Assembly (NCBI RefSeq): GCF_018320785.1 | Contig: NC_054885.1 | Location: 10,042,421 to 10,106,420, forward strand | Length of the DNA: 64,000 bases | From: Cheilinus undulatus | Taxonomy: Eukaryota > Chordata > Actinopteri > Labriformes > Labridae | Direction of reading: 5' to 3' | Shown here: positions 9,001-62,700 of the stretch, piece by piece | Layout of the letters: each line of letters opens with the position of its first letter | How positions within the stretch are numbered: the first letter of the stretch is position 1 | The notes under the pieces: generated by a model | What the model saw: the letters and a program-made list of their open reading frames with translations, nothing else | Database searches by the model: none | Told to the model about the DNA's origin: nothing | Made by a program: the position numbers and the translations under genes

Positions 9001-9179
9001 AAGAATGAAGGATCTGATGATGAGAGACAGGGGTGCATTTTAGCCCCTCCACTCTTCAGTATCTACAGTATATGGACAAAAATATATGGACACCTGACCA
9101 TTACAACTGGGACTGTTTTACATTGTATTCACATACATGTACTTTAAAATGGATCATGTATGATGTCAAATACTAACTG

Positions 9180-15245: not shown

Positions 15246-18200
15246 ATGGCCACATCCAGGTAAGAAACTTTTAACAGTTGAGCTTCTTATGCAAAGAAAA
15301 TATCTACACCCGAGCAAAAGCAAACACATGTCAGATAATTTAAGCCCCTCTCCTATTTATTTGTGTATGTTTCTTTAAATGTTGAATACACAGCCCGCTT
15401 TTGTTACGAAGATGGTCAGATGATAAGGATTCCTCTCTTTGTTTTTCTTGTTTAACCCTCAGTGAACCCTTACTTGTATGCTTTCAGTACTGATATACAT
15501 TTAGTTATCACTATTATAATAGTTAAGACAATTAACGGTGGATTAACTGTATTTTAGCAATGATACTGTAAATTATTTCAGCTATCATTGATGTAGTTTA
15601 ATTAAAATTTAGTTAAAATTGAGTCCAATTACCTGATTACCTTTGTATATGTAAATATTTTTACCTGTCATAGCAGAAAATACCTTTTTAAGAACTTTAA
15701 ACTTACGCTAACAGTTGTCACTGTTACATATTTTGTGCTTTGGCGACATCTGGTGGCTATATCGCGGAACTGCAACGAAAATAAAACAATAAAAGGCTTG
15801 TGCCTCGGCTTGTATTTATCAGTACTATCCAGAAAATAAAAAGCCTTACTAACTGACCTTAAGGGAACATTTTTATACCAAAGCAAACGCTATCTTTGGA
15901 CACGCCTCCTTCATTCCTCTGCTCTTCCCACTTCCTGGACTCTTCCTTTCCTGTTTTAGGAGGGAGTTTTTTTAGATACTGAGAGACTGGCAGACAAGTG
16001 TTCCTAAAGCTCTGAAAACTAGACTCTATAATCGACTTCCATCAGTGATATGCATCTCAGTTGATTTAGTTGTTGACTGTTTCTTATGATTGAAATAATT
16101 TTATTATGTTGAAATGCACTCTTACAGCAGTATCTGGATTTATGCCCTTGAAAGCAGTGCCGAAAGCAGTATGTGTGTATTATTAATTCACCAACAACTG
16201 AAGTCTCCACTCTAAAAACAATAAATTTAGCCTGGTTGGACTTTAGAGTAGTGCTGCACAGTTAAATATAATCTCAATTGTGATGTCAGGCAGGGCAATT
16301 CCATAACTGCATAAAAGTCAAAATTTTGGTTGTAAATATTTGCATAAATTCTCCTATTTGCTCATACTGATAGTTCACCGTCTCAGCTAATATCTGCTTA
16401 GAAAGCATTTACTAATCGGACATTTGCTGACTTTGTTGGAAGGCAAAAATCAGATTGAAAATGGGCACGGTTATCTCATAGTGTGTGCCCGACTTCTGTT
16501 TAGCATAGAGCTGAGAATGGAGCTTGACTTTATCGTTTCCAGTAATTTGAGGTTCTTCATTTTATATAGATTGTCATAGATTATGATTTTAAAATGTAAT
16601 CTGCTGTTAGGTTCTGAAATCTCACAGACTGGATGGTGTTTTGTTTATTTTTTCCCACAGAAAAGAACTCAGGAAGGCGCTGTGGAGCTACACAGCAGAC
16701 ACCCTCGTCTACATTGACACAGTGATACGATTCTGTAAGAGGGTGCCCAAATGGATGCTTGGGATGGAATCAGAGCTGAACATGCTCATGGACATCAAAG
16801 AGAGGGCTGACAACATCGACCTAAACATCAAACATGTTACCCAGTCAGAGAACAAGGGAGAAGCCTTTCTGGAATATATGAAGAGCAAGGTGACACAGGT
16901 GACTGCAGACAGCAGACGTGAAGAGCTGGAGAAGGAGTTGGCCGCGGTGCTGAAGGACACTCTGGTGGAGCTGGAGAAGCTCCACCGCTTCCTGGATGCA
17001 GTGGAGAAGCTGGCGGTCACCTCCCTTCATGTGTTTGAGGAGGAGAGGCAGGTGGTGTTACACCTGCCAGAAGGGGCCAGCCTCGACCATGTTCAGGTCG
17101 TCATCGCTGCGGCACAGCTGATCTGCCCTCTGCTTCTCGAGTTTAAAAGAGATCCACATGTTTTTTTCATCCCTAAGCTGCAGAATGTGGAGGTGCTGGC
17201 ATATCAGCTGGACAGATACATCCAGACCACCCAGAGGATCTGTGGGATGTTAGAGAAAAGGTAAACACTGATATCAAAAATATTCTCATTTCACTAAGCA
17301 CGAGTCTGTTTGAGATAGTAAATTCAATTTTGTTTTTAACAGCACCTTGGGTGACTTTACCCTGAAGATGTCTAAGAAAAGTGCGGTATCCCTGGATGCA
17401 GAGTTGTCAGAAGACAGTATACAAAGGATGCTCTATCACATCAACCAGCTGAGCGACATCAGGTCAGTATGGTTTGACTGTTTTACAGCTGCTGTGCTGC
17501 TGTGCAGGGTTTTATTGATAGAGTTATCACAGTTATATATTTAGAACTGGGACTGAAGATTATAAAACCTAAAAAGGTCAAGTGTAATATTAATTTACAA
17601 CCCCAATTCCAGAAAAGTTGGGGCGCCATGTAAAATATAAATAAAAACAGAATGCAATGATTTGCATCTCATAAACTCATATTTTATTCAAAATATCACA
17701 TAAACAACATATGAGTCATAGAAACTGAGACATTTTATTCATTCTTAATTTGATGGAAGCAACACATCTAAAAAAAAGTAGGAACAGGGCCATGTTTACC
17801 ATTGTGTAGCAGCCCCTCTTCTTTTAACAACACTCTGTAAATGTCTGGGTGTGAGGAGAGCAGTTCCTGGAGTTTTGGGAGAGGAATGTTGTCCCATTCT
17901 TGTCTGATGTCAGATTTTAGCTGCTCAACAGTCCTGGGTCTTCGTTGCCAGATGTTTTATGATACTCCAAAAGTTTTCTATAGGTGAAAGGTCTGGACTG
18001 CAGGCAGGCCATTTCAGCACATGGCCTCTTCTATTGTGAAGCCATGCTGTTGTAATAGATATGGTATGTGGTTTAGCATTGTCTTACTGAAATATGCAAG
18101 GCCTCCCCTGAAAGAGACATTGTCTGGATGGAAGCATGTATCTCTCTCAAACCTCTTTCTACTTTACAGCATTTATGCCTTTCCAGATGAGTAAGATGCC

Positions 18201-20759: not shown

Positions 20760-21060
20760 ATCTCAGAGGTTACCATGTGCCTCTTTATGTTTTTTTTTTT
20801 TTTATCAGCTTTGGCACTTAGAAAAATCTATTCACTGTGGTTGATCTGTTAAAAAAAAAAAAAAAAAAGAAAACCAAACTGCTAAAGGCTAACTGTTTGA
20901 GATCAAACTTTATTGAAATATACATTTGTGAAATTTCTGCAATAACAGATGATTAAGCCTTTTTTTGTGCTCAGGAATTATGTTTCTGTATGAACCTTTT
21001 CTAAGAATGCTTCAAGTAATGCAATATGTGTCTTTTTCTGAAACCCATTTTGCTAGTTAT
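20760..21060. other. Probable 3' UTR of gene A
   Basis: T- and A-runs (20790, 20850) follow the stop. Sequence such as GCTAAAGGCTAACTGTTTGAG is shared with the gene C 3' side (46503-46520), which supports transcription past the stop. Confidence 0.45.
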
Positions 21061-22040
21061 TCAGAAATTGGTCTGAAGAGGCAAAAAAATAGGCAGAAAG
21101 TGGTAAAAATTGGTTCAAGTGGCATAAATCGGCATTAAAAATAGTGAAAAGTGGTCAAAAATGGTGAAAAAGGGTTAATAGTTGCAAAAATGGGTTAAAA
21201 GTGGCAAGAAAGAGAAGAAAACAGGTTTAGATACTTACACAAATGGGTCAAAAATTAGGCATAATGTGGAATGAATTGGTATGAAGTGGCAAAACAGGCA
21301 GTAAGGTTAGTGAAAAAGGTTACAAGTGACAAATACGGGCATAAAAAATGGTAAAATGGTTAAAATGGGCAGTGGGTATAATATTTTGTTAAAAGGTGTT
21401 AATAGTGGCAAAAAATGGGGTAGCAGGCAACAGTCGGCAGAATGTGGGAAAAAATGGTTAAAATGGCAAGAAAAGGCAGAAAAAGCGGGCAAATAGAATT
21501 AAAAACTAACACAAATGGTTGAAAACAGGCAAAACTGGCATAAAGTGGCACAGATTGGTTAAAAGTGGAAGAAACAGGCAGAAAGGGTAGTGAAAAGGGT
21601 TACAAATGGCAAAAATGGGCATAGAAAATAGTGAAATACAGTTAAAATTGGCAAACAATGGGTATAAAAATTTGTATAAAGGGGTGAATAGTGGTAAAAT
21701 GGGGTAACAGGCAACAGTATGGAGAAAGTTGCAAAAATGGTTTTCGAGTTACAAAAAGCCTCGAAAATGCAGTGAAATAGTATTAAAAAATGGTCCAAAA
21801 GAGACAAAAATAGGCATAAATTGACATGAATGGGTTTATAGTGGCAACCAAATGGGCATAAAGGTGGTGAATAGAAGTAACAAGTGGATAAAAAATGGTG
21901 TAAATTTGCAAAACTGTTAAAATTTGCAAGAAAAACCAGGCAGATTAAGTTTAGAAAATTGATAATAGTGGCAAAAACAGGAAAAAAAGGTGGTGAAAAG
22001 GGGTTAAAAGTGGCGAAAAGTGGCTCAGTAGCATTGGTGT
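21060..22040. repeat. A-rich minisatellite, GGCAAAAATGGGTTAAAAGT-type units (copy 3)
   Basis: Third ~1 kb array of the same unit family, with variants ACAGGCAGAAAG and GGGCATAAAAA. The 172-codon minus-strand frame 21559-22077 is its low-complexity translation. Confidence 0.85.
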
Positions 22041-24530: not shown

Positions 24531-25937
24531 ACATGAAGTTATTTTGATGCAGTCAACCAGGGATACATTTTGATGTAATCCTCTCATTCAGTTGAGCATG
24601 ATTATCTCAGATGTGGTCAGAAAAGACTTAAAACCCTGATATTCTGCAGAGCAAATTCTGTCAGTTTTAATGAAGGGTGTCTCACTGCAGTGCAGAAAAT
24701 TTTGACTAAACAGGAAGTCATTGCTAAGACAGGAAATCACTCTTGAATCTTGATGTGAACAAAGTAAAACATTGGTTGAACTTTAAAAAAAAAAGAAGTA
24801 ATCAATCACATGAAACATTTTGAATTGAATCAATTTTTTTTTAATTAGGTAAATGTCAATTGTTTAAGGTCATAGAAACTATGTTTAAAGGTTTAGCAAA
24901 CCTAATTATTTTAGATTGTCTTAAACTAAAAATAAAAAATTCCCTTCATCAACCGATATAAATATTCCACTCATTTGAACTTAAAATGTTTAAGTACATA
25001 CAACCATTTTATAAAGGTTGGTGGGGGCTGGAGCCTATCCCAGAGGCAACAGCGCTAACCCCTGCGCCACTATGCCTCCTACAGTTTTGAAAGTCAACTC
25101 AACACATTTTTCCTGAAAACTCTTGCTACTTTGGCCCGATGGGAGAGCAGAAATGTATTAAAGAGGACATATTTTGCCCTTTAAGACAAGTTTATATTGG
25201 TCTTAGAGGTCCCCAAAACATGCCTGTGAAGTTTATTGCTGAAAAAACAGTAGTATAGGATACTTGCAGGAAATGGATGTCACTCTCCTGATGTTTAAGG
25301 CACCTCTATCCAAAGTTTAGGATCTAACTGGGATTCGAACCATCACAATCCTAGTCAAAAGTCAGCACAGTAACCCATTGAGCTAAACTAGAAATGGGAA
25401 AATCAGCACTCAAAATGTCCTTTTTAACATTTATTCAGGCATAACAGGCCAGAACGGACTCGTTTCGACACGTAGGTCAAAGCTGGGTGCCTGTGCTGGA
25501 CTGTAGAGGGAGAGCCACTCAGACTTAAATTTGACACCAACCTTCTTATAATATTAGTGATAGTAGTAATAATGACTTTCTTGAGACTTACATTTATCTA
25601 TGGGTGCAGATAATATCTGCTGTCCAACAGTAAAGTTCAGTTAATTACCTTGTTACTGATGATTTCACCACTCACTGTTTATTTACACTGACAGCAGATT
25701 AACATAAGCAGGGAAATATCATTTGGGCTGAATGAAAGAAGCTGAGGAAACATGTAGACCAGGTGTTTAAAATTTTGTTCCCCTTGTTTTAATAAAATTT
25801 GGATTCATAAGATTTAATTTTGATTGCATTTTTATCTTTTAATGAGAGTTTGGTGATAAATTCCCCTTCAACCCCCTGATCTACCAATATTATTTAACTG
25901 ATTTTTTTAAAAACTTTTTTTTTCTTTTTTTTAACAG
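24531..25937. repeat. 5' flank of gene B, duplicated upstream of gene E
   Basis: Sequence such as TTGAGCATGATTATCTCAGA matches 58972-59802 closely, including the T-rich acceptor tract before the start exon. The B copy carries about 500 bp absent from the E copy, including an L2/SINE-like tail (25020-25080, GGCTGGAGCCTATCCCAG) and a reverse-strand SINE-like element. Confidence 0.75.
25150..25410 (-). mobile_element. SINE-like element with tRNA-derived head, reverse orientation
   Basis: AGAGGACATATTTTGCCC is followed by AGAGGTCCCCAAAACATG and, at 25330-25400, a tRNA-like head on the minus strand (B-box-like GGTTCGAATCC as its complement, then AGCTCAATGGGTTACTG). It is a relative of 7010-7555 and is absent at the equivalent place in the gene E flank. 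Confidence 0.6.
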
Positions 25938-25965
25938 GTGCTTATTAGATCAGTGACAGCGGAAG

Positions 25966-28900
25966 ATGTCATTAGAGGAGAAAATGCTGAATGCAAGGTA
26001 AGTTAGAGCGATTGTGGCACAGGAAGTTTGGCTTATCTCTGGTTACTGTCAGCCTTTTTCTCTGGTGTTTGCTCTCATTTATTTTCTAGCATGACTACTC
26101 TTTGTTTCATGTTGTCTCTGGATCATCATCCTGATTTGGTTGGTGGAAGTGTTTTTGCTGTATTTGTTTAAGAGAAGGAAATGTAATTTTCTATAGCTAG
26201 CAGGTTGCTAAAGCTCACATTGCAAATAAAACTGGCTAACACAGACGCTTTATGGGTGAAATACAGTACAATAGCACAATTATGTTTTTGTGTTACAGAA
26301 AAAAAACTCAGGATGCTTTGTCCTGGTACGTCATAGAAACCTTGCTCTACATCGAAACAGTTAAACAATTCTGTGGAAACTCCTCTGAGTGGTTGGGTGC
26401 AAGAAGAGATGAGGTCTCCAGAATGGAGGAAATAAAGAACTCCTACAGCATGATTGATCCTGGCATCCGTGATCTTTTTAGAAAATATAATATAATACAG
26501 GCCATTTGGGAATATGTATGGAACAAGTTGACTCTGCTGCTGTGTGAGAGTGCGAAAACAAAGCGTTCAAAGCTAGAAAGGGACCTGGCTGTTGTCTTGA
26601 GAGACAGTCTGTGTGGCCTGGAGAAGCTGAATGTCTTCCTGGAGGCTGTGGAGAACCTGGCGGTCACCTCACTCCACGTGTTCCAGGAAGGGAACCAGGT
26701 GTTAAACCTGCCAGATGGGATCAGGCTCGAGCATGTTCAGGATTTCATCACTGCTGTACAGCAAATCTGCCCTCAGCTCCTCAAGTTCAAAAGAGATGCA
26801 AGCGCCTTCTTCCTTCCCAAACTTGATAATGTGGAAGAACTGATGCATCAGCTGGACAGATACATCCAGACTGCTGAGAACATCTGTGGGGAATTAGAGA
26901 TGAGGTATTTAGGTCTTACTGTAGCATTATTTCACACATTTCAAATAATAAATATGAATAAAAGTTTCAGTAAATCTTCACTAAAAGAAAAAAAAAATCC
27001 TAAGGATTACAGAAAAAAGTGTCAGAATACTTCTCAAACCGTATTTTTATTTTTGTTTTGTCTTTTGTTAGTTGCAGTAATCTCTTCCAGACAATTCCCA
27101 AACACACTGATGTTATCCTGGATGAGGATCTGACTGATGATGGGGTACAAAGGATGCTTGATCATATTGATAAACTTGCTGCAATCAGGTAAATATTGAA
27201 CATACAGTATGCATTCATCATCATCATTATTATTATCACATTGATTTTTATTTATTACGTTTATTTCTATCTTTATTAATTCCTTCTAACAATCATGATC
27301 TATCCCCTAGCATCTCTTGATGCCCACCACACACCCTTCCTTAACCAAAAAGAGGGTAAAGATTTAAAAGGGAAATTAATAAATAAATCACAGAAACTGA
27401 AAAAAAAGTGATAACAATCAGAAATAAATCTGTCTATGAGCTGATGAAATGTCAACCCTACTGGACAGACTCCCCTCCACTGTGTCTGGGGGTTGTTTGA
27501 GTGGATGGCAAATCACAGTGAGGTAAACCCTTCAGCCAGCCCCCACCTCAGAGTCTGGGGGCGACTGAGACATGCTGTTTTACAACACTTGGTAAAAAAA
27601 AGGAAACATGGCCTAGAGCAGTGCCAAGGAAGGTAGTAAGGTTGCTGTGGATGTTTCAGGGGCCTGAGAACTGCCAGCACTCTACATGCATGAAATAAAT
27701 GCACATTGCTTTATTTGGGTAATAAGATATTTTTGAAACAGATGTTTTTGTTTTTTAAAGTAGGTAATACCTTATGATACATGCTAGACAGGGTCTGGTA
27801 CATGGATCTAGATTGAGTTAATTTAATACCTGTGGATCAGTAGGTAGTCTAGCTTATCTTGCAGCCGGATGGTTGGTGACTGTAGGAGCTTTATGACACT
27901 TTCTGCACACAGTTTGTTACTACTGCTGCATCAGTGGTGTATAAACTAACTATTGAACAAAGTCTCAAAGATCAGTTCATTCAAAAGTGACAAGTAAGCT
28001 CAGAAATCATGCGATTTATATGAAGACTTTAAACGACATCAAACTGGAGGAGTAGTCTCTATCTGAAAATGTAAAGTACAGTCAAGTTATCTGCAATTTT
28101 AGATTTAATAACAGCAGGAATCCTCAGTTCACTGAGAGAGATAAAGAGCTGAACACAAAACAAAGGTTAAGAGACCTCTGTAATGATAATGTTCTTAGTC
28201 ACAGGGATCATCTTTTCTTTAACAACTTATTAATTTAATAAGTAATAGAGAAATCTACCCAAAAGAGTATTATTTAAACTATTCTTCCATGTTTAAATTT
28301 GTTTTGTTGTTGAAATTAGCCAAGTTAAATTCATTTGTAAATTACAGTTTTGATGCTTTTTTGAATTATATCCTCCCATTATTTGAATAATTTTGTATTT
28401 CTGCTATGATGTTTGCAATCTTCTTTTTTATTTGTATTGTATGTTGTTTTATCTCCATACTCATGATCATGGTCCGAGTCACATGAATAGATGAAATGGA
28501 TGAATGTGTATGGATGGGATTAATACTAAGTGTGTGACGAGATCTCGCGAGATCAAAACGTCAAGAGATTTCTCTTTGAGGTGAAACGAAAAACGTGTTA
28601 TTGACGGAAAGATTTCTAGTACTCATTTATTTTTGCTGATGCAGCTCTTTATATTTCAGTCTGTTGTACAGTTTTTTTTTTTTTTTTTAGTTTTATTTTT
28701 GGGCCTTTTCATGCCTTCATTTGATAAAAGAAGGACAGTGGATAGACTCAGAAACAGTGAAGAGAGTGGGGAGAGACGTGTGGAAAAAGGCCACAGGCAG
28801 GGTTTGAACCCGGGCCGCCTGCATACATGGGTCTCATCACACCTCTAGTTAATACTAACTGCCACAATGCATCACAGCCTTCTCCATCAGTGTGACGTGT

Positions 28901-30450
28901 GGTGAATAAAGAGCTTTAAGAGGTCAGTTGACCAGAATAGTGCAGAACAATCTCAAGTCCACTAACCAAATTGAGCTGATTTAATACATGGGTGTGTGGG
29001 TAGTGTTCATCAGCAACACTGTTTCTGCCTGTGGCATTAGTGCTAGCCATTGTAAATGAGTTGCTGTTTGCAATGAGAGTTATTTGCATAAGGGCAATTT
29101 TGTGCTGGATTTTTGAGTATTCCCTAATTTACACACATGTAAATGAGGCAGGTACACCAGAAAACAGTCTGCTTGACAGTTTGTGTTGATTATCCTTGCC
29201 CTCATAAGATGGTGGTTAGCTGGGCTCTTAGACTCCAGGCCTCAGATCAGACTCTCCTGGGTCACAGTACCATTCATCACTCCCCTAAGACACCATACTT
29301 CAGTTACCAAAGCTTTTCTTTCTCCTTTTTTTGAAAAAAAAAAAGATATGTATATTTACTGGATAAACTGGAAATACCAAAAAGATGTTAGGGACTCACA
29401 GAGAGACAGAGAGGCCACACACTGCTACAGTCGGGGCTAGTCCCACCTAGATAAGCTTCACTTTTCCTTTATACTAAAAATGTGTTTTAGATTTAGGACA
29501 TATATAGTCATGCTTATACCATGATTTGATTTTCGCTCTTCATCAGGATGGATCCAGACTTCAGGGTGGTGTTCTTGTTCAAGGATGGTTCATGTCCTCG
29601 TTTTATTGAGGAGTTCACTGAGCAGAAGGAGGGGATGCTCCAGAATCTGGAAGACCTGGAGGAGACTGCTGATAAGCTTGACCACATGAATAAGAGGGCT
29701 AAGATAATATGTAATATCTTATTGGGTAACTCTGCACCAGCAATTGGAAATGTGCTTTCCATCATTGGTTTCTCTCTAATTCCAGACACAACACAGGTGT
29801 CTCTTTGGTTTACATTTTTTGGGATGATGCTCAGTGGTAGCAGCAGCATAATTCGCTTCTTCATATTCATTAAGACCATTATAACCTGCAAACACCAAAA
29901 GGAGGCTGAAAAAGTCTTCAAGAGTTTAATGACAGATGTGAAGTCTGTCCAGAATATTCTGGAGGAGATGCCTGCTCTGAATGTTGAAACTGAGGGAAAT
30001 GACAGAGTTTTTTGTTGTTGTTGTTGGGTAAAGACTGACAGTCTTGGATACACTATGAAATCAGTTGTTGATGCTGCCTTTGATATCTGGCTGTATAAAG
30101 AAAAGGAGCTGATTGAAAGCACTGGTAAGGTGATCACTGAGCAAGGTACAGCTTTACATAACATGTCCATGACAGCATTTAAAGGGCCACTCAGCCTCTC
30201 AGATTTTTTTCAGGCCTTTACTGTTGGGAGCAACCTTTCATTTCTCATCATGGATCTCATCTTCATCCGCAAAGAATGGTATAGTCTGTCAAAAGGCGAT
30301 AAGACTGAACTCTCAGAGTCCATCAGAGCCAGAGCTGCACTTTGGCGCTCAGAGCTCGATGCATTGGAGAAGATCCATGATTCTGCAACTAAAGGTCTGC
30401 GAACATTAGAGAACGACATTTCATTTCTCAACAGTCAGTTTTATATCTAA
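25966..30450 (+). CDS. Gene B: divergent apolipoprotein-L-like protein, 550 aa, four coding exons
   Basis: Exons: 25966-25997, 26299-26904, 27078-27188, 29547-30450 (1653 nt, all phase-2 introns). The first ATG gives MSLEEKMLNAR. The second in-frame ATG (25984) aligns with the start codons of C and E and would give 544 aa, so the true start is uncertain. It has an N-terminal module like gene A, a linker, then the ApoL domain starting MDPDFRVVFLF. The hairpin has lost many glycines and gained Phe/Ile/Met, and a GTT microsatellite encodes four consecutive cysteines (30013-30024). The C-terminal region with SLSKGDKTELSESIRARAAL is conserved. No CaaX tail. AATAAA follows the stop closely at 30481. 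Confidence 0.82.
26299..26904 (+). CDS. Gene B exon 2: N-terminal helical module
   Basis: 606 nt, acceptor GTTACAG, donor ATGAG/GTATTT. It ends with the family signature HQLDRYIQTAENICGELEM. Compared with gene E, the first ~100 codons differ at about 21 positions, all replacements, while the last ~100 differ at one residue. Confidence 0.82.
28650..28850 (-). mobile_element. tRNA-derived SINE in intron 3 of gene B
   Basis: Reverse orientation of the SINE at 13190: poly-T start, GGGCCTTTTCATGCC, GACAGTGGATAGACTCAG, then the tRNA-like head complement GGGTTTGAACCCGGGCCGCC. The same insertion, with its head shortened, is present in gene E at 63570-63705, so it predates the duplication. Confidence 0.75.
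29547..30450 (+). CDS. Gene B exon 4: ApoL domain exon
   Basis: 904 nt after acceptor TTCATCAG, open to a TAA stop. It aligns along its length with exon 4 of A and C, and most closely with the frameshifted exon 4 at D. A long minus-strand frame over the same bases (29514-30170) is a shadow. Confidence 0.85.
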
Positions 30451-32880
30451 AGAGGGAGATCTAGAAAAAAGAAAAAAGGCAATAAATGAAAAAGAGGTCA
30501 CTGTATTTTGAGAACTTTTTGACATTTACTCTGATAAATGAGGGTATACATACGAGGCAGCCAAGGTGTAAATAAATAATATACAGAAAAACATTTTCAA
30601 TGTTATGAGTGTTTCAAGGTATGAAATGTGACCAGATGTCTCTAAAATTTCCCACTTTAGTTAAAAACTAAACAAAGCTTTTCTTTGGCTATACCTCAGC
30701 AGACCCTAGTCCTCATAAAGTGTTTTAACTAAATGCAGCCATTTGTTTATTTTCATTTAGATGTAAGCTGAAGTATATTCAGTTTTCTCTTCTTGTAAGT
30801 ATATTTGGTTGGAACGTCTGTTGTTTCTCCTTGCATTATATTCTTGTGACTAAACTCTGCCATTGTAACTTCACATAGAGCGTTCCTGAGTGGACCATGG
30901 CCCTCTATGGAGGGGGGTATTCCAGCATTACAATCTGCAGCAGTTCTTGAACTCTAAAACAAGTTTACCTTTCATAGTTGTTGGATTGAAGGTGATGAAC
31001 AATCACTTACTCAAGCTGAGTCAGGGATGCTAGCTGCCACCAAGTCTGTTTCCTCTCTTCCTTCAGCCATGTGAGTTAAACAAATGAGAGCTACAAAAAA
31101 ATTTGCATTGGCAATTTTGGACTTCTTGCCTTTATTAGAGGAGCTGAAGAATGACAGGAAATATGGGTAGAAGGTGAGGCAACAGCGCTGGGATTTGGGT
31201 TTAATCCTGCCACCACTGTATCCTATTACTAACAGTAATAATGTACATAGTATAGTATTAATGAAATAAGTTTTATATCATGAAATAAAAGATCATGACT
31301 CTGACAGTGTCTTGGCTTGCAGAAAAAGCCTTGCTGACCCAGACTGTCTTCAGATGACTTGGTTTGATGATTAAAGAAATTACAGGAGTTTTAATGTCTC
31401 AGCTTTTTATGTCTGTTGTGGAAACCCCCACTGTAAATAAAATCTTATCATTTCTTATTCCTTTGGTAGAAAGCCATTTGTCTTTGAAGCTTCATATTTA
31501 GCAACCTGTCAAGATGTTAAAGTTACAGCTGTGTTTTTACTTCAGAAATGTTAATTTTCTTTTGCTGCCACTTTTTTGTATCTGATTAACATGATGTTTT
31601 ACTGTATCCATCCAATGTGGCTGAAGTCTGACCATGTATTTACAAAATAAACAGCTTAAAGCTTACCATTTAAGATCATTATTTATCTGTGTGATTGCTG
31701 CAGGTCTCTTATGTGCTTTGGAACCTTTTGCCAGGCCAGTTTCAAATAATGCAGTATGCCATTTGCTAATAAATTTGATGTTGACCTGGTGGGTCAGAAC
31801 CCAAAAGTGAACTCCTGAATCACATAAGTGCAAAATGTCTATAATATGCTTTTATTTTGAAGGATATGTCTCTATTTTTTTTGTCCCATCTTTTGTTCCA
31901 CTTCAAGCTCAAACTACCCAATTTTTCATCAAGAACATCTGATTAAGATTGAAAAATATCAGAAATTTGGTCATTATTTGTTGTCAAGGAGGAGGTCGAT
32001 GTTGATGTTAGACCAGCTGAGAACCACTGGACTAGATCTTTGCTTCTCAACATGACCCATCACCACCTCCTCAGAGAGAAATTGCAACTAAAATTGCAAC
32101 CACTCAGTTTTACTTGAAGAAAAAAATGCAACAGTTTGAATCTTAGAAAGATAAACCTAGACAGAAAGGCAAAAGAAAAAGCATGTTAAAGAGGAGAATC
32201 ATTACAGAAGCTCTAAGGAGAGATGTATACCTGAATTTCTATTTTACTCCATTTCCTGTGATAATAAGTGTTTTTCTTTGTTTTTTAATGATATATCCAG
32301 AAATCAAAACATCATCATGGGAAAACCACTTTTGTTATCCCAAGTTAACCAGGAAAACACCCCACATGTACTCATTTTCATGGCAAAACAGAGTGAATGG
32401 AAATACATGGATGTATGTCTGCTCAGGGCTTCCTTAAAATTAAAAACTTATCCTATAATGTTTTTTGTCACAAATGTTCAGCCCACTTTTTTGTCCTGAC
32501 CTACCTCTTGAGAAGTCTTTCCTTATAGGACCGTGCTCCATCTGTGGGAAAGAAACAGAAAAGTGATCAGTGCTGTCTCTGCCATTTTCTATGTAAATGT
32601 AACTTTGAAAAAACGTACAAAAATCTATGAATTATACATAAAAACTGCTGCTGGGTTCAACATGGTCTCAAATTTGATGTGTTTTTACCTTTGTTATCAC
32701 TGATCAGTGGAGACCTCTGATGGCAGCATGCAGCAATCATCTGCTGCACATTACTGTTAAAACCTCATCTAGTGTGTTCTTTTGAATATATGGATTTATA
32801 ATCTTTAAGATTAATTTTTTTCTCCAAAATAATTTGCTTTTATTTCTCAAAAATCAACACATCCTTTTCAGTTTGTAGTC
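30451..32880. other. 3' flank of gene B, shared with D and partly with C
   Basis: Contains AATAAA at 30481 and 30573. From ~30630 it matches the D flank at 53220-54310, and 31840-32720 also resembles the gene C flank at 46880-47640. No additional gene is recognised; a short frame at 32183-32499 has no family. Confidence 0.55.
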
Positions 32881-33524: not shown

Positions 33525-36250
33525 CAGCAGGTTCAATCATGATGGAAACTTGTGAAATCTTAGTTTGCAGAAAGAAACGCTTATCCGGTCCTGTTAGTTT
33601 CATTTTTTTTTTTTATGACTAAAATGTGAGTACATTTAATGAACATTTTTATAGAAAGACTAAGACCAAATTCAAAATAGCTGCCAAAATGAACACTGCC
33701 CAACAGTCAGCAAAGTTGGTGAGTGCTCGTGCATGTGTTAAAAAATTCAACAATTCAGCTCTTGGATGTGGAATTCACATTTGCATGAAAGAAACTGGTC
33801 AGTGTCTTTGTAAATCATCAATCATGATGGAATCTTGTGAAATCTTACATGGCAGAACACCAGTGAAAGAAACCCCTATCTGGTCCTGTAAGTTTCATTT
33901 TTTTTAAATGACTAAAATGTGAGTACATTGAATGAACATTTTAATATAAAGACAAAACTGAAACAAATTGCTAATTATTTTAATGATTATTTCTATGATA
34001 AGGTGAAAATTTTAAGAAGCAGCATGCAATCAATAACTGATACTTCCACAACAATGATGAAAGATTTAATAATGGGAAATAAGAAGTGTGAATTTAAAAT
34101 TGAAAAAGTAAAAGTTTCAGATGTTGGATGTTTGATTAATAACTGCAAAGATAGACCATCAGGAATAGATAACTTGGATGTCAAACTTAAAATGGTTTCT
34201 GGTGTAATTGCTGTTCCTGTGTGCCATATTATTAATTTAAGCGTTGAAAAATGTATTTGTCCACAGGCAAAGAACCAAAGAATCCAGCTGCACCTTTCTG
34301 TGGTCCTAACAGCCGCCCTATAAGCTTGTTGCCAGCTTTAGGAAAGATAATGGAGAGAATTATTTTTGAACAAATACAAACTTATTTTGATGTTAATGAT
34401 TTAGCAACGATCTACCAACATGCCTATAGGCCTGGCCATTCTACATGTACAGCTCTGACACAAATGGTGGAAGACCGGCAGAGGGAGCAAGATAACAGGA
34501 ACATAGTGGGAGCAGTGCTGCTAGACCTCAGTTCAGCGTTTGATGTTATTGATCATTCTTTATTATTAGGTAAGCTGAAAGATTATGGATTTACTAATGA
34601 GTGCTTTAAAATGGATGGAGAGCTACCTGACAAACAGGAGGCAGACCGTTTTCTTTAATGAAAGTCTGTCAACAATGAAATATGTTCCATGTGGAGTACC
34701 TCAAGGTAGCTGTTTAGGACCATTACTATTTTCTGTTTTTACAAATGATCTTTGTAAAAACAGTTTTAGATAAAGCTCACGTGGTCATGTATGCAGATGA
34801 GTCAAAAACATATACAGCTGCATCTTCAATAGGACGACTTGACGCTATTTTACAGATGGAGTTAAAGTCTGTGGTAGAATGGATTACAAGAAATAAACTG
34901 ATTCTTAATGTAGGTAAAACAAAGTCCATTATATTTGGTTCAAAATGTCAGTTAAAAGCTGATCCTGCACTGAAATTAACTATTAACAAAAAACCTATTG
35001 AGCAGGTGTGTGAGACTAAACTGTTGGGTAGAACCTTGGATCAGCATCTCTCATGGTCAAAGGATATTGATAATGTTGTCAGTAAAATGGGAAGAGATGT
35101 TTCAGTTCTGAGAGGAGTGTCAAAAAGTTTACCTCCAGATGTTATTAAACTAGTATGAATGCCTTGGTTCTGTCCCAGCTTGATTTTGGCTCTATGATTT
35201 GGTCCAGTGCTTTAATGAAGGACTTAAAATTACAAGTGTCTCAGAATAAAGCAGCTCGGTGTGCCTTACAATGCTCATATAGAACCAATGTAACAGACAT
35301 GTATGACAGACTGGCTAACTGTGAGACAAAGATTCACTTGTGTTTTATTAAATTTTCTCAGGAGTATAATTGTGACACAATCTCCAAAGTTATTATATGA
35401 AAGACTATCCTCTCAGTTTGCTAAACATCATTACCAAACAAGAAGTGCAACTGAAAGAAGGTTCATACTACCGATAGTGAAAACAGGTATAATACAAAGA
35501 ACAGTCCTGTACAGAGCCATGGTAGGCTGGGATTCATTGCCAGTGTATATTATTCAAGAAAATAACAAAGAGAGGTTTAGATTTGTGTTGAAACAGTGTC
35601 TCTTAAATTTAATTAACAATGATAAATTTTATTGAGTAAAAAGTGCTTTCAGGATGTCGGCTTGGTATGAAATGTATTTTCACCTCTTTTTTCCTTGGAA
35701 TTATTGTGTGTGATCACAGGATAATTGGGCCGTATCTGTGATAGGTCATCCAGTTATGTGATTATTACAATGTGGCATGTAAATCTATGTGTCTGCATGC
35801 GTGTAATATCTGATGGTAGAAAGACATTGAGTTTGATGAGTAAAAATGTGATTATGACTTAGTGTTCAGCATCATGTTTGTTAAAAGGATGACCATTTTG
35901 TTTCTCCTCTGTATGTTTTCATACTTTTTTTATACTTCTGTTTTTCTTTTTTGTTTTTGAACATGTTTGTTTAGGTTTTATTGTGTGTTGATATTTATGA
36001 CCTTATGTGTGTTGGACCCCAGGAAGAATAGCCAATACTTTTGCTTGTGCTAATGGGGATCCTAATAAAGAAAGAAAGAGAAAGACTAAGACTAAATTCA
36101 AAATAGCTGCCAAAATGAACACTGCCCAAACAGTCAGCAAAGTTGGTGAGTGCTCGTGCATGTGTTAAAAAAATTCAACAATTCAGCTCTTGGATGCAGA
36201 ATTCACACTTGCATGACAGAAACTGGTCAGTGTGTTTGTGATGTAGAGAC
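33525..36250. repeat. Direct duplication of a ~290-bp unit, split by a LINE
   Basis: TCAATCATGATGGAAACTTG (33533) to AATGAACATTTTTATAGAAA and onward recurs from 33821. The following part, AATTCAAAATAGCTGCCAAA (33669), recurs at 36094 after the LINE. Read without the LINE, the locus is a two-copy tandem repeat. The 93-codon frame 33626-33907 is a by-product. Confidence 0.75.
33958..36079 (+). mobile_element. Non-LTR retrotransposon remnant (L2/Rex1-like LINE), 3' part
   Basis: Broken frames between 33919 and 35635 encode reverse transcriptase: a SRPISLLPALGKIMERI stretch, motif A LLDLSSAFDVIDHSLL, motif B VPCGVPQGSCLGPLLFS, and motif C as YADE instead of the catalytic YADD, then LNVGKTKSIIFGSK. 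Frame changes near 34250, 34600, 34750, 35155 and 35320, and the altered catalytic Asp, make it inactive. The 3' end reads GATCCTAATAAAGAAAGAAA. AAAGAC on both sides could be a short target duplication. Confidence 0.85.
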
Positions 36251-42512: not shown

Positions 42513-45500
42513 ATGTCAGCTGCCAGGTAAAGAGTTAGAGCTACTGTTGCACAGAAAGTTTTGGGCCTCTTTGTGGTTTTGATAACACATTTATGTCTTC
42601 TGAGAACAATAAAGATAATGTTATGAATTTAAGCTCTGCTCTTCCATTTTATGTCTAGTAAATATGCTGTTTTGGGGGTGAAAATTAGTTAGTGGTTAAG
42701 TTGAGGGTGAGTTCTATTCTGGCCTGCAGCTTCTTTCCTGCATGTCTCTCCCTCACTCTCCCATACCAGTTTCTCACTCTATCCACTTTCCTCCTCATGT
42801 GCATGTACAAAATGACTCAATATGACACAAAAATATTTGTGTTATCTGGGATATAGTGAGATGGGGCCATGAGAAAACATATCTGGAAAATTTTTGACCT
42901 CTGAGTGACCCATAAACAAGCTGTCACATTAGTGTGAACACAGAGCTGAGAACAACAAACCCAGAGGAAGATGGACCTTAACCTCATGTATTTTTGTACA
43001 TTTGATCAGTTCATTTTCTGTGTATTTGATTTTTGCTATCTTTTGTTTAGAAAGTCAGAGATCATGATTTGAAAATGTAGACAGACTCCACCAGAGCTGG
43101 TAAATTCTGAAATCTCACAGACCAGATGGTCCTTTATTTTCTTACAGAAAAGAACTCAAGAAGGCGCTGTGGAACTACACAGCAGACACCCTCACTGACA
43201 TCAACACAGTGAGAAAATTTTGTGGCAGTGTGTCTAAATGGATGCTTTGGAGGGAATCAGAGCTGGTCATTCTGATAGACATCAAAGAGAGAGCCGACGA
43301 CATCGACCTTAACTTCAAACATGTTACCCAGTCGGAGAACAAGGGAGAAGCCTTTAAGAAATTTGTGAAGAGCAAGAAGAAGGTAGACAGCAGACGTGAG
43401 GAGCTGAAGAAGGAGCTGTCCGCAGTGCTGAAGGACACCCTGGTGGAGCTGGAGAACCTCCACCACTTCCTGGATGCAGTGGAGAAGCTGGTGGCTACCT
43501 CCCTTCATGTGTTCATGGAGGACAGGCAGGTGGTGTTACCCCTGCCAGAGGGGGTCAGCTTAGAGGATGTCCAGGATGTCATCGTTGCAGCACGGTGGAT
43601 CTGCCCTCTGCTCCTGGAGTTTAAAAGAGATGAAAAAGCCTTCTTCCTCCCTAAACTGCAGAATGTGGAAGTGCTTGCATATCAGCTGGACAGATACATC
43701 CAGACCACCCAGAAGATCTGTGCGATGTTAAAGAAAAGGTAAACATTGATATCCCTTCAAAAATATTCCCATTTACTAAAGACAAATCTGTTTGAGAAAG
43801 TGGATGTAACTGTGTCTTTACCAGCACTTTGAGTGACTTCACTCTGAAGATACCTCCATATCTCTCGGGATCTGTGGATGCAGGTTTGTCAGAAGACAAC
43901 ACACAGAGGATGCTGGATCACATCGATCAGCTGAATAAAATCAGGTTAGTAAACAACATCAGTTAGTGCCTCAAAGTGCTTCAGGCAGGTGCTGCCATGC
44001 AGTATTAGAGGCTACGCACATTGTATAGGAGCCAGGCCACTCACAAAGGGCACAAAACCCCAGGAGTGGACATGACAGCTGACATGACAGGTATATAGTA
44101 AACAGCCACTGGGATTTTCAAAGGAAAAGCCTCATCATTACCTCCGCCAAGGAGGTTATGTGATCGGCAGGGTTTGTTAGTTAGTTTGTTAATTTGTTAG
44201 AAACATAACTCAAAAAGTTAAGGATGGATTTTCATGAAATTTTCAGGAAATATTAGAAATGGCACAAGGAAGAACTGAATAGATTTTGGGAGTGATCCGG
44301 ATCACCATCTGGGGAATTTTTAAAGGATTCGTTACTATTGGGAGATAGGGCTAATGGCAGAGGTCTGCACTCTCCGAGTGCTTTTCTAGTTTTGTTTATG
44401 TGGTCAGACGGCTCACCTTTTCATATGGTACTTTTATTCTGAAGGGTGTTTGGGATAGTCCCTCGATTGTTGCAGTAACACACAAAGTTGGTCCATGTTT
44501 AACTTTCCTTTCGTTTCCACTCGAGGTAAATGATTAAAAACATCAGATTCTAAGAGATATTAACTCAAATGTGATCTCCATCTCCTTCTACATCTTGTTT
44601 TCTGCCAAAAGAAAATGTTGTGAATTTCAAACAGATGCATGATGGGAAATAATCTCAAAAGGAATCATATTCTAGTCTTGTAGTTAGTGACCACCAGTCG
44701 TCACAAAATCTCAGTCTGAGACTAAAAACTCAACGGCTTGTTGACAAATTGTCTTTAGATGTGAGAGGGTCTCAGATTTCAGTCTTTTTAGAGTCTTTAA
44801 AAGTTTTAACAAAGTCCTCTTGTGTAAGGCTGGCATAACTTGCATATTTTGCACATTTTCTTCCCAAAAGTTTTTGGATGGTTTTAATCAAATATCTCAA
44901 AAATAGAAATTCATGCATTATTGCATTATTTTGTACCTTGTGTCAAATCACAATCATGCTAACATTCTACACTAAGACAAAATGAAAGTTAATGACGTCT
45001 TCTTTGCTTTTGGATGTTAGTATTGTCTTTGCTAGCTTGTTGGTCTGTACTTAAACATGACTGAGCATGAATATAGCACAGAAAGCTGCTAGTATGACTG
45101 TAATCATTCTTTAACCAACAGCAGCTTCAGCACATACAAGAATTAAAGAAGTTGACATTATAGTTTCATTAATTTATGTTAAATGCTGTTGCTACTACTT
45201 GTTGTACTACCACTACTACTTATATGTGCCCCGACAAAATCAATCAGTTAGTCTTTATTTGAACAACATCAGTTCATAAGGACAGAGTATCTCAAGGAAG
45301 TTCACAAAGAGCACAAATCTAGACCACACTCTACGATATGAAAAGATCATCTAGGCTTTTTTTCTTTCATACTGCCGTATCACCCTCAATCTTTATTTCC
45401 CTGTTTCTCTTTATCAGGATGAACCAGAACTTCCGTTTGGTTTTCTTGTTTGATGATGAAGTCTGCTCTGTCTTCCTCAATGAGTTCAGCGATCGTAAAC

Positions 45501-46309
45501 CCCGCCTTCTGCAGTCTCTGGATGAGCTAGAGGAGGTCGCCGTCCAGCTTGACTCCATGAATAAGGGAGCGAAAATCTCCAGTGTGGTGGGCAGTTCAGT
45601 TGGAGCGGTAGGAGGCATACTCTCCATTGTTGGTTTGGCGTTGAGTCCTGTAACAGCTGGAGTGTCTTTGGGTCTTACTATGGCAGGTGTGGGGCTCGGT
45701 ATCACCAGTGGGGTTAATGGGGCTGTCACCACTGCCACAGAGATCGGGGTGAACAGCTCACAGCAAAAGAAAGCTGGTGAGGTCTTCCAGAGGATCATGG
45801 AGGACATGCAGAGTCTCCATGATTATCTGGAGGAGGCCAAAATTGAGACAAGTCAGCTAGATGTCGCTGTGGGAGTGGGCAGATTGTTTGGCAAGGCTGG
45901 CGGCATTGCAAAAGGCATCGATTCACTTGTTTATGCTGCCTCTGCTTTTAAAGTGCTTGGTCAGGAAGGTAAAGCTGTAGTTACTGCTTCAAGGGTGGCT
46001 TCAGACGTCCCAGATATCAGAAAGGCAGCAGCTAAAGGGCCTCTCGCCCTCTCCAATGCCGCTAGAGCTGGATTAATTGGGCTCAATGCTTTTTTCCTGG
46101 GCATGGATGTCTTCTTCATCTGCAAAGACGGCATCAGTCTGGCCAAGGGGAGCGAGACTGAACTGTCAAAGTTCATCAGAGCCAGAGTTGAGCTTTGGCG
46201 CTCAGAGATCAATGCATGGGAGAAGATGCATGATTCCCTAAAGGACGGTCTGCTGAAATCAGAGAAAAACAAAGCTATCCTGGAGACGCCTTTTTACCCA
46301 GAGATGTAA
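42513..46309 (+). CDS. Gene C: apolipoprotein-L-like protein, 538 aa, four coding exons
   Basis: Exons: 42513-42526 (MSAAR), 43148-43738, 43825-43944, 45418-46309. Total 1617 nt, phase-2 introns throughout. The closest relative is gene A: the exon 4 hairpin and C-terminal segment are nearly the same (SSVVGSSVGAVGGILSIVGL, AFFLGMDVFFICKDGISLAKG), but C lacks two short internal stretches present in A, around VTAQTVAK and after KVL. Translation stops at PEM (46307-46309), while 3' DNA homologous to the last ~33 codons of A continues in the untranslated region, out of frame. The start exon continues 5' to an acceptor at 42468. The polyadenylation signal AATAAA is at 46578. Intracellular and membrane-interacting by family analogy. 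Confidence 0.85.
42690..42835 (+). mobile_element. SINE tail fragment in intron 1 of gene C
   Basis: CTTCTTTCCTGCATGTCTCT and TCTCACTCTATCCACTTTCC match the body of the tRNA-derived SINE family seen at 13190; the tRNA head is gone. Confidence 0.55.
43148..43738 (+). CDS. Gene C exon 2: N-terminal helical module
   Basis: 591 nt, acceptor TCTTACAG, donor AAAAG/GTAAAC. It is three codons shorter than in gene A (KSKKKVDSRREE versus KSKVTQVTADSRREE). Homology extends to the acceptor, upstream of the first in-frame GTG at 43209. Confidence 0.82.
44146..44395. mobile_element. Interspersed repeat (ACCTCCGCCAAGGAGGTTATG family) in intron 3 of gene C
   Basis: Starts ACCTCCGCCAAGGAGGTTAT and ends GGCAGAGGTCTGCACTCTCC / GAGTGCTTTTCTAGTT, with GTGATCCGGATCACC inside. 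This short non-coding repeat is found widely in fish and some invertebrates; its class is left open. Confidence 0.75.
45418..46309 (+). CDS. Gene C exon 4: ApoL domain exon
   Basis: 892 nt after acceptor TTTATCAG. Full-length ApoL core. It ends 33 residues earlier than gene A. Confidence 0.88.
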
Positions 46310-52136: not shown

Positions 52137-53033
52137 GAATGACCATAACTTCAGGATGGTGTTCTTGTTCCAGGATGTTTCATGTTCTGGTTTTATCGAT
52201 GAGTTTACTGAGTGGAAGGACAGGGTGGAGAAGTTTCTGGCAGACGTGGGGAAGACTGCTGATAATCTCGACCACATGAATAAGTGGGCTAAGATTGCCA
52301 GCATCATTGGTAGCTTAGCAGCAGCTATTGGAGGGGTGCTTTCCATCATTGGTTACACAGAAATTCCAGGAAAAGCTCGAGTGCCTCTGGGTCTTACATT
52401 GATTGGGATGATATTGAGTAGTATCAGTGGAGTCATCAGCATCAGCAGAGATCTGGGTAAACTGCACACAACAAGAGAAAGGCAAAAGAATCTTACAGAG
52501 GTTCATGGAGGATGTGCAGCATCTTCATGATACTATGAAGGATGTCACTAATCAGAAGGTAAATTATATGTTTGTTTGTGGTTTCTGTTCATTACAGATT
52601 GGTTGGACAGCTTGTTCTGTTCTATACACCTTGAAATCACTTTTTGATGCTGTCATTGACATCCTGATTGAAAACTTTAGTGAAGTGACTGAAAAGAAAA
52701 ATAATGATTCACATAATGCATCTAGTTTGGCTGCAGATGTTACAGAAATCACACAGACAGCATTCAGGAACACTTGAGCGCTCAAAGTTGTCTAAAGCTG
52801 TAAGCATTGGGCTCAGTGCTTTGTTTCTCATTTTGGATGTCATCATCATCTTTAAGGAAAGCGTAAGTCTGTGCAAAGACACTGAAACTGAATTCCCAAA
52901 GTTCCTCAGAGCCAGAGCTGCACTGTGGCACTCAGAGCTCGATGCATGGGAGAAGATCCATGATTCTGCAACTGAAGGTAAGCAGAGATCAGAGAACAAC
53001 AATTCAGTTCTTGACAGTCACTTTTATATTTAA
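52137..53033 (+). pseudogene. Locus D exon 4 remnant: frameshifted ApoL exon
   Basis: Three consecutive frame segments: 52137 to ~52440, ~52448-52777, and ~52770-53033. Recognisable parts are FRMVFLFQD, LDHMNKWAKIASIIGSL, IWVNCTQQEK, and a final ALWHSELDAWEKIHDSATEG matching gene B. Confidence 0.82.
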
Positions 53034-58972: not shown

Positions 58973-59850
58973 ACATGAAGATATTTTGATGGAGTCAACC
59001 AGGAATAACATTTTGATGTACTCCTCTCATTTAGTTGAGCATGATTATCTCAGATGTAGTCAGAAAAGACTTAAAACCCTGACATTATGCAGAGTAAATT
59101 CTGTCACTTTCAATGAAGGATGTCTCACTTCAATGCAGAAAATTTTGACTAAACAGGAAGTTGTTGCTAAGACAGGAAATCACTCTTAAATCTTGCTGTA
59201 GCCTAATTTGACTTCTAGCTCCATATGCCAACAGAGTTTACACTCTACTGACATTTAAAGTGTTACATCAGCTAAGATAGTTTAAGTTAAGCTGAAGCTG
59301 TGACTTAAATTTGACACCAATCTTCTTATAATATTAGTGATAATTTTAGAAGGTGGGATAACAATGAGGATGATGAGCTGAGAAATTTACTGGCTGGTTT
59401 GTTCTCTGTGATCAATAACAATAATTATAATAATTTTTGATGACTTTCTTGAGACTTACATTTATCTATGGGTGCAGATAATATCTGCTGTCCAACAGTA
59501 AAGTTCAGTTAATTACCTTGTTACTGATGATTTCACCACTCACTGTTTATTTACACTGACAGCAGATTAACATAAGCAGGGAAATATCATTTGGGCTGAA
59601 TAAAAGAAGCTGAGGAAACAGTTAGACCAGGTGTTTTAAAATTTTGTTCCCCTTGTTTTGATAAAATTTGGATTCATAAGATTTAATTTTGATTGCATTT
59701 TTATCTTTTAATGAGAGTTTGGTGATAAATTCCCCTTCAACCCCCTGATCTACCAATATTATTTAACTGATTTTTTAAAACTTTTTTTTCTTTTTTTAAC
59801 AGGTGCTACAATTAGATCAGTGACAGAGGAAGATATCATTAGAGGAGAAA

Positions 59851-61166
59851 ATGCTGAATGCAAGGTAAGTTAGAGTGACTGTGGCACAGGAAGTTTGGCT
59901 TATCTCTGGTTACTGTCAGCCTTTTTCTCTGGTGTTTGCTCTCATTTATTTTCTAGCATGACTACTCTTTGTTTCATGTTGTCTCTGAATCATCATCCTG
60001 ATTTGGTTGGTGGTAGCAATTTTGCTTAAGAGAAGGAAATGTAATTAAATGTTTGAAAACAGAGCTCTGAGTAAGATATGAGCTACTTGCAGAAACATTG
60101 TGCATGCTATAGGCTGTGAATTATATAATTATTATTATTATTCATTCTGCCCCAAACTGTGTAATTTTCTATAGCTAGCAAGTTGCTGAAGCTCACATTG
60201 CAAATAAAACTGGCTAACACAGACGCTTTATGAGTGAAATACAGTACAATAGCGCAATTATGTTTTTGTGTTACAGAAAAAAAACTCGGGATGCTTTGTC
60301 CTGGTACGTCATAGAAACCTTCATCTACATCGAAACAGTTAAACAATTCTGTGGAAGCTCCTCTGAGTGGTTGGGTGCAAGAAGAGCAGAGTTTTTCACA
60401 ATGGTGAAAATAAAGAACTCCTTCAACATGATTGATCCTGGCATCTGTGATCTTTATAGTAAATATAAAATAATATGGGCCATTCTGGTGTATGTATGGA
60501 ACAAGTTGACTCTGCTGCTGTGTGAGAGTGTGAAAACAAAGCGTGCAAAGCTAGAAAGGGACCTGGCTGTTGTCTTGAGAGACAGTCTGTGTGGCCTGGA
60601 GAAGCTGAATGTCTTCCTGGAGGCTGTGGAGAACCTGGCGGTCACCTCACTCCACGTGTTCCAGGAAGGGAACCAGGTGTTAAACCTGCCAGATGGGATC
60701 AGACTCGAGCATGTTCAGGATTTCATCACTGCTGTACAGCAAATCTGCCCTCAGCTCCTCAAGTTCAAAAGAGATGCAAGCACCTTCTTCCTTCCCAAAC
60801 TTGATAATGTGGAAGAACTGATGCATCAGCTGGACAGATACATCCAGACTGCTGAGAACATCTGTGGGGAATTAGAGATGAGGTATTTAGGTCTTACTGT
60901 AACATTATTTCACACATTTCAAATAATAAATATGAATAAAAGTTTCAGTAAATCTTCACTAAAAGAAAAAAAAAATCCTAAGGATTACAGAAAAAAGTGT
61001 CAGAATACTTCTCAAACCATATTTTTATTTTTGTTTTGTCTTTTGTTAGTTGCAGTAATCTCTTCCAGACAATTCCCAAACACACTGATGTTATCCTGGA
61101 TGAGGATCTGACTGATGATGGGGTACAAAGGATGCTTGATCATATTGATAAACTTGCTGCAATCAG
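59851..61166 (+). CDS. Gene E: apolipoprotein-L-like gene, partial (exons 1-3; exon 4 outside the window)
   Basis: Exons: 59851-59864 (MLNAR), 60277-60882, 61056-61166, all phase 2, with GT..AG borders identical in position to gene B. The extra upstream ATG of gene B reads ATA here, so translation should begin at the ATG conserved with C. Exon 2 is open throughout and ends with the LDRYIQTAENICGELEM signature. Exon 3 is nearly identical to B. By alignment with the B unit, the window ends at the position equivalent to ~29118, about 430 bp short of where exon 4 should start, so the ApoL domain cannot be seen. Exon 2 carries a patch of replacement-only differences from B. The acceptor of the start exon is at 59802. 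Confidence 0.8.
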
Positions 61167-62700
61167 GTAAATATTTAACATACAGTATGCATTCATCACC
61201 ATTAATATCATTATCAGATTGATTTTTATTTATTAAGTTTATTTATTTATTTGTGTCTTTATTTATTTTATTTATAATTTCTTTCAACAATAATGATCTA
61301 GCCGCCTAGCCTCTCTTGATGACCACCACACACCCTTCTTTAACCAAAAAGAGGGTAAAGATGTAAAAGGGAAGTCAATAAAAAAAAAATTTAAAAAGTG
61401 ATAATCAGAAATAAATGTGTTGATGAGCTGATGAAATGTCAGACCTACGGACAAACTCCCCTCCACTGAGACATGCTGTTTTACATCACTTAGTTAAAAA
61501 AAAAAAGAAAGCTCAACCTAGAGCACCACCAAGGCAGGTAGTAGAGTTGCTGTGGATGTTCCAGGGGCCTGAAAACTGCCAGCACTCTACATGCATAAAA
61601 TAAATGCACATTACTTTATCTGGGTAATAACACATTTTCAAAACGGATGTTTTTGTTTTTTTAAAGTGGGTCATACCCTAACATACATGCCAGACAGTGT
61701 CTGTGGTACATGGATCTAGACTGAGTTAATTTAATACCTGTGGATCAATGGGTAGAGTAGGTTATCTAGCAACCGGATGGTTGGTGGTTAGATTCCCAGC
61801 TCTTACAGTCACATGTGACTGTAAGAGCGTTAAGACACTTTCTGCACACAATTTGCTGCTACTGCTGCATCAGTGGTGTATAAACTAACTACTGAACAAA
61901 GCCTCAAAGATCAGTTCATTCAAAAGTGGCAAGTAAGCTCAGAAATCATGTGATTTATATGAAGACTTGAAACAAGGCATCAAACTGGAGGAGTAGTCTC
62001 TATTTAAAAACGTAAAGTACAGTCAAGCTATCTGCAATTTTAGACTCAATAACAGCAGGAATCCTCAGTTCACTGAGAGAGATAAAGAGCTGAATAGAAA
62101 ACAAAGGATCTGAGACCTCTGTAATGATAATATTCTTTGTCACAGCTATCATCTTTTGTTCAACCAAGTAACGCATGAAAACACAAATAATAGCCAGAAA
62201 ATTCCATTTTTTGGAACTGAAATGTTCATTTAACTTTCTACTGAAATAAAAAAAAAAATCCAAATTTCCATAAATTTTTAGAATTATATTTTTAGTTTCT
62301 CATTTTATTCATTGGGTGTTTTTTGCTAACTGATAATCCACTTGAGGACATTTTTTATCATTTATCAGATTGTATTTGTACGTTTTTTTTTTTTGAGTAA
62401 TTTATTGAGCATATTGATTAGATAGAGGTATCATAAAAGTATGTATCAGATATGTGACAACAGGTATTAATAATTTAATAATAGAGAAAAAAATATCCAA
62501 AAGACTATTATTTAAACTATCATTCATGTTTAAATTTGTTTTGTTGTTGAAATTAGCCAAGTTAAATTCATTTGTGAATTAGTTTTGATGCTTTTTTTGA
62601 AATATGTCCTCCCGTTATTTGAGTAATTTTGTACTTCTGCCATGATGTTTGCAATCTTCTTTTTTATTTGTACTGTATGTTGTTTTATCTCTATACTCAT
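61167..62700. other. Intron 3 of gene E, 5' part
   Basis: Matches gene B intron 3 closely, except for ~290 bp at about 62160-62460 that is missing from B (or inserted in E). A decayed tRNA-like stretch (GGTAGAGTAGGTTATCTAGC, 61750-61800) is also present at ~27840. Confidence 0.6.

Follow-up and report, generated by a model that had tools for sequence, protein, structure and literature searches.

The window, a 64,000-nucleotide stretch of Cheilinus undulatus DNA (C21:10042421-10106420), contains four teleost apolipoprotein L (ApoL, PF05461) genes, A, B, C, and E, all on the plus strand. Gene A (16611-20759; exon 2 at 16662-17258, exon 4 at 19713-20759) and gene C (LOC121503662, P0107; 43104-46309; exon 2 at 43149-43736, exon 4 at 45419-46309) are ApoL paralogues that match PF05461 with 120.2 and 134.7 bits, while B scores 62.8 bits and the full E protein 63.9 bits (Pfam gathering cut-off 25.9 bits). 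D (52141-53030, plus strand) is a broken copy of the ApoL exon 4 that scores 31.2 bits; its tblastn matches are spread over three reading frames and interrupted by a stop. Neither blastn nor tblastn on the window turned up an exon 2 near D. Genome-wide (1.17 Gb), at least six copies of exon 2 (A, B, C, E, C', and F) were detected, lying within about 66 kb.

Gene B (LOC121503641, P0001) is described by a four-exon model on the plus strand, consisting of the coding part of exon 1 (25966-25997), exon 2 (26299-26904), which encodes an N-terminal helical module with no Pfam family given, exon 3 (27072-27188, with splice sites in the gene model), and exon 4 (29547-30450, stop included), which encodes the ApoL domain. 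The product has 552 aa and matches the public LOC121503641 protein over all 552 residues. Gene E (LOC121503620, P0002), also on the plus strand, comprises the coding part of exon 1 (59851-59864), exon 2 (60277-60882), exon 3 (61050-61166; tblastn match at 61048-61167, 100%), and an exon 4 that lies past the window end (L007:4890-5747, window-equivalent 64469 on). Its protein has 532 aa, and the translations of exons 2 and 4 agree with the public protein. E starts at the second ATG, six residues later than B, because the upstream ATG of B (25966-25986) is ATA in E (59833-59853). Both reading frames are open and give full-length products.

Several other features were observed in the window. A reverse-transcriptase fragment (PF00078, 43.3 bits in 34248-34655), probably belonging to a non-LTR element, is located at 33916-35158 between B and C, and the frames beside it (33916-34320 and 34718-35155) matched no family. 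Strong strand asymmetry was seen at 8001-10000 and 20001-22000 (GC skew 0.22 and 0.31, AT skew 0.28 and 0.22, respectively), and no tandem array at a score of at least 150 was found in either segment.

The exon 2 sequences of B (26300-26902) and E (60278-60880) were aligned over 201 codons with zero gaps, and differ in total at 23 codons and 28 nucleotides. The original prediction, which had been made by eye, assigned almost all of these differences to the first 100 or so codons and only one silent and one replacement change to the last 100. The alignment agrees with it: 21 codons and 26 nucleotides differ in codons 1-98 (the patch), the residue is altered in 21/21, and codons 99-201 carry one silent change (codon 142) and one replacement (codon 169). 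The divergence had also been called replacement-only, which is correct per codon but not per nucleotide step, where about three silent steps are contained in five double-hit codons. Path averaging over the patch gave Sd 3.0 and Nd 23.0, and the codon pairs GTC/TTT and GAA/GTG include a silent step on any mutational path.

Most of the patch differences fall into a divergent core formed by codons 37-71, which corresponds to 26408-26512 in B (protein residues 48-82) and 60386-60490 in E, both on the plus strand. There, 15/35 residues and 20/105 nucleotides differ (17 replacement and three silent steps), and the rest of the patch (codons 1-36 and 72-98) shows six replacements and no silent change. 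The B/E differences cluster more tightly than chance allows: over 1557 compared sites of the surrounding block (two low-complexity or indel-rich stretches omitted), 44 differences were counted, and 20 of them are located within a single run of 105 sites. Shuffling 20,000 times in each of four sets gave maxima of 17, 13, 14, and 14, and another shuffling run gave 13.

The flanking introns and exon 3 had been described as almost identical between the two genes. This holds close to exon 2, with 0/115 differences in exon 3 (27074-27188), whose sequence is the same in E, and 2/169 in intron 2, but the similarity extends only to about 27220. Within a block of about 1.6 kb, 15/795 noncoding sites differ (25572-27071; the count omits two low-complexity or indel-rich stretches, and the entire intron 1 has 26/300), compared with 162/1472 outside (27200-28780). 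The change point was placed at 27221, with 16/827 noncoding differences before and 162/1451 after it (lnLR 37.9, versus at most 7.2 in 500 shuffles), so that the block of lowered neutral divergence, which spans 25572-27220 on the B side and about 59440-61200 on the E side, has a sharp edge within homologous DNA; upstream, the B/E homology ends at 25571. Exon 4 has a silent divergence of 20.4/205.1, or about 10%, indicating an older B/E paralogue divergence of about 10-12%. The likeness of the flanks was probably produced by interlocus gene conversion around the ~105-bp core. As the identical flanks look homogenised, conversion would account for part of the contrast between patch and flanks, and more generally, near-identical flanks created by conversion can inflate an apparent replacement-only signal. 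Separately, the B/E identity is 92.8% over 30169-31000, up from 86.2% ahead of 30169, and only three of the final 50 residues of exon 4 differ, suggesting a possible second homogenised stretch.

Such a near-identical tandem pair might also be suspected of being an assembly or collapsed-haplotype artefact, in which one of the two genes would partly consist of an allele of its partner, since tandem near-copies are error-prone. However, the flanks and start codons of B and E differ, E carries an intron insert, and exon 4 differs at 76/281 residues; furthermore, base errors would show no preference for codon-changing sites. An artefact is hardly credible here.

Strong diversifying selection had been proposed for the patch, and this proposal was only partly borne out. 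With the patch's own silent rate, counting (kappa 2) put dN/dS at 2.7 and maximum likelihood put it at 3.6 (p 0.041), but the corresponding 2x2 table (23/228 replacement vs 3/66 silent) gave p 0.22, and omega was 1.14 (p 0.54) at the outer-intron rate. The replacement divergence of the patch (23/228) exceeds that of the block introns (p 2e-7; p 8e-9 if all 26 changes are counted as replacements). The probability of zero silent codons among neutral hits is 0.002-0.009 for the 26 hits of the patch and 0.05-0.10 for the 20 hits of the core.

When the adjacent-intron rate (d 0.019) is used, omega rises to 6.9 in the patch (p 3e-12 against a value of 1) and to 15 in the core (p 1e-14). These values would fit a history in which conversion levelled the whole of exons 1-3, with the core not spared, and very strong positive selection later produced each of the 26 patch changes; the six replacements and zero silent changes of codons 1-36 and 72-98 point in the same direction. 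However, the core silent divergence (3.0/22.9) is higher than that of the block introns (15/795; p 0.012), a core rate of d 0.019 is marginally rejected (free ML estimate d 0.13; fit worse by 1.9 lnL, p 0.051), and recent re-diversification demands an omega far above that of exon 4. We regard it as possible, though rather unlikely.

The elevated silent rate gives the core an apparent age equal to that of the paralogues, with the limit that this age rests on about three silent steps inferred inside double-hit codons, and that in 4/5 of these codons the changes are adjacent and could be single multinucleotide mutations. It is these about three silent steps that favour a retained old island, as about twice as likely, over recent re-diversification. 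Omega of the core is 1.8-2.0 (p 0.33-0.40) at its own silent rate, 2.5 (p 0.002) at a neutral d of 0.11, and 2.1 (p 0.011) at d 0.119 with other base frequencies, and its replacement divergence (17/82) exceeds that of the outer introns (p 0.012). Positive selection is likely to have shaped the core as well. By contrast, the old, outer-intron rate misfits codons 1-36 and 72-98 (p 0.0015), and these codons appear to belong to the homogenised block. Since the whole patch shows an omega of 1.14 at the old rate, the retained-island reading depends on handling the core separately.

Beyond the patch, the clearest evidence of positive selection on the B/E pair comes from codons 1-100 in the alignment of the exon 4 sequences (all of B 29548-30447 with E L007:4890-5747). 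In columns 1-100, which were picked after inspection of 50-column bins, omega is 4.9 (p 0.0014, own silent rate) and remains 4.4 (p 0.0035) when gap-adjacent codons are dropped; 40/98 residues differ, with 52.6/222.5 replacement versus 5.4/71.5 silent steps, and the replacement divergence (53/223) exceeds that of the outer introns (162/1472; p 8e-7). For the control pairs, omega in the same columns is 0.27 (A-C) and 0.49 (C-C'); C-C' omega is 0.40 in exon 2 and 0.51 in exon 4, and A-C omega in exon 2 codons 37-71 is 0.52.

For exon 4 in full, omega is 1.64 (p 0.068); with d set to 0.119 it is 1.41 (p 0.0025). Past column 100 omega falls to 0.87, so relaxed constraint also contributes to the pattern. 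Taken further, B and E could be decaying duplicates near omega 1, whose differences form a conversion mosaic with no positive selection, and the patch omega at the outer-intron rate, as well as the lower PF05461 scores of B and E than of A and C, would be compatible with this. We consider such a general decay quite unlikely, as exon 4 columns 1-100 evolve above the neutral rate, and both frames stay open despite about 94 replacement steps in exon 4, whereas 4-5% of random changes would create a stop.

As an alternative, conversion from another selected paralogue had been proposed, with the patch imported into B or E from a third, diverged copy. The compact shape of the patch and the apparent activity of conversion in the array speak for it. 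A genome search with the core of E matched E and B only, and so did the database proteins (four candidates, two hits). Among the at least six exon 2 copies, F is the only further one whose DNA match spans the patch, and it is 77% identical. With F as outgroup, the 28 differing sites of exon 2 were changed in B at 11, in E at 10, and ambiguous at seven; for the 26 patch sites, the numbers were 11, eight, and seven. Changes on both lineages are not expected from a foreign tract copied into one gene, and the searches with the core of E gave no support for a third-paralogue donor. We consider such a donor very improbable, although one that is lost, unassembled, or withheld would escape these searches.

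Taken together, we favour, with slightly better than an even chance, a reading in which B and E form a tandem mosaic with a selected old island that escaped homogenisation. According to this reading, the neutral DNA of these two tandem apolipoprotein L genes had diverged by about 11%. Later, about 1.6 kb at the 5' end, from intron 0 through exon 3, would have been homogenised by interlocus gene conversion, leaving ~2% neutral divergence, while the ~105-bp core of exon 2 would have retained older, replacement-rich divergence; codons 1-100 of the ApoL exon, which lie beyond the converted block, show like divergence. Selection against homogenised variants may have kept the core distinct, and the selected segments may set the membrane, partner, or pathogen factor addressed by each putative pore-forming copy. 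A host-pathogen interface, as suggested by the gene family, is plausible.

The AlphaFold model of B has a mean pLDDT of 72, with block means of 73-96 at the core helices. In it, the core stretches from the end of helix 39-63 through helix 67-73 into the first part of helix 76-92. The proposal that the changes lie on one face of the module gained no clear support, as a helical-wheel permutation over the helices predicted in this model gave p 0.26; helix 67-73 alone gave p 0.054 in the same model. The top 19-residue Kyte-Doolittle mean over codons 37-98 is 1.61 for E and 0.82 for B, which rank first and second among 105 homologues with a median of about 0 (15/120 were omitted as too short in codons 37-98). 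The hydrophobic stretch of E begins inside the core and extends beyond it, and its score borders on the values typical of membrane segments. As a core helix of E has turned strongly hydrophobic, altered membrane contact is a candidate function. A doubtful extension of this is that the helical stretch of codons 37-98 would be a targeting or specificity element of teleost apolipoprotein L, with that of E now membrane-inserting, giving the array a repertoire of pore-formers that differ in membrane or partner. If so, tandem copies would keep codons 37-98 different while conversion evens out the rest, and a Siniperca pair with a like pattern of hot and cold segments would be an independent case.

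That pair, Siniperca P0014/P0022, repeats the B/E contrast, with differences at 16/31 core positions and 1/103 in codons 99-201. Over 19 disjoint same-species pairs (B/E excluded), which were chosen greedily, closest first, at 1.5-30% difference and with enough aligned sites, from 20 species groups defined by protein names, the core holds 103 differences versus about 61 expected (Mantel-Haenszel OR 1.9, z 5.8-5.9), with an OR above 1 in 13/19 pairs and below 1 in 6/19. Rotation of the pair differences within exons 1-3 gave a mean of 57.5 and a maximum of 99 in 2000 trials. The OR is 1.65 (z 4.2) without Siniperca and 1.31 (z 1.7) in 12 strict pairs. Moreover, the core sites that vary between B and E also vary more in other pairs (0.214 vs 0.114 at other core sites, p 0.024). 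The core thus appears to be a modest hotspot in other fish pairs; a stronger one is an exon 4 loop (codons about 381-422), where the model pLDDT is mostly under 50. Within the array, no core excess was found in C/C' (OR below 1) or in A/C. As the fish-pair data are protein comparisons, selection and relaxed constraint are inseparable there.

Two side observations were made among these homologues. Thunnus albacares P0028 and P0038 are isoforms X4 and X1 of LOC122966125, and their exon 1-3 columns are the same, while 53/296 residues of the ApoL exon differ, as if there were two alternative last exons. Exon 2 alone as query matched 37 shorter proteins (P0121-P0157), most of them without a precomputed ApoL domain, such as Sebastes LOC141781537 (209 aa); these could be fragments or stand-alone modules.

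Rapid evolution has precedents in this family. Positive selection on primate APOL genes was reportedly described by Smith and Malik in 2009 in Genome Res. The B/E pair shares with primate APOL the family name, gene duplication, and rapid pathogen-linked evolution, but it differs in being part of a fish array and in that selection acts on codons 1-100 of the ApoL exon and probably also on the N-terminal helical module upstream of the Pfam domain. Human APOL proteins are not known to have a clear equivalent of that module, and the selected primate sites reportedly lie in other domains. In the excerpts of PMC4159527 and PMC2829049, positive selection on primate APOL is cited, and copy-number change and balancing-selection signals are given for stickleback APOL. 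The stickleback case resembles ours in these excerpts by its teleost genes, copy-number change, and proposed immune selection, while its signals are population signals at the gene or region level, and no codon-level patch or conversion mosaic is described in them. Among the literature matches listed, there was no report of codon-level selection in fish apolipoprotein L.

With the retained island as the preferred reading, exchange between neighbours seems to even out a gene linked to immunity, with two segments kept distinct by replacements, and the N-terminal helical module together with the first part of the ApoL exon may be the seat of fish apolipoprotein L specificity. A known parallel is the primate red/green opsin pair, a converted pair of paralogues in which islands are held apart by selection. 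In both cases, near-identical introns and exons flank a short, replacement-rich island, but what the island residues do is established for the opsins, whereas the B/E island has a candidate function. The B/E pair presents a real and well-localised mosaic, in which some segments look homogenised and others are probably selected, within a tandem family linked to immunity; this type of evolution is known, but its setting is new.
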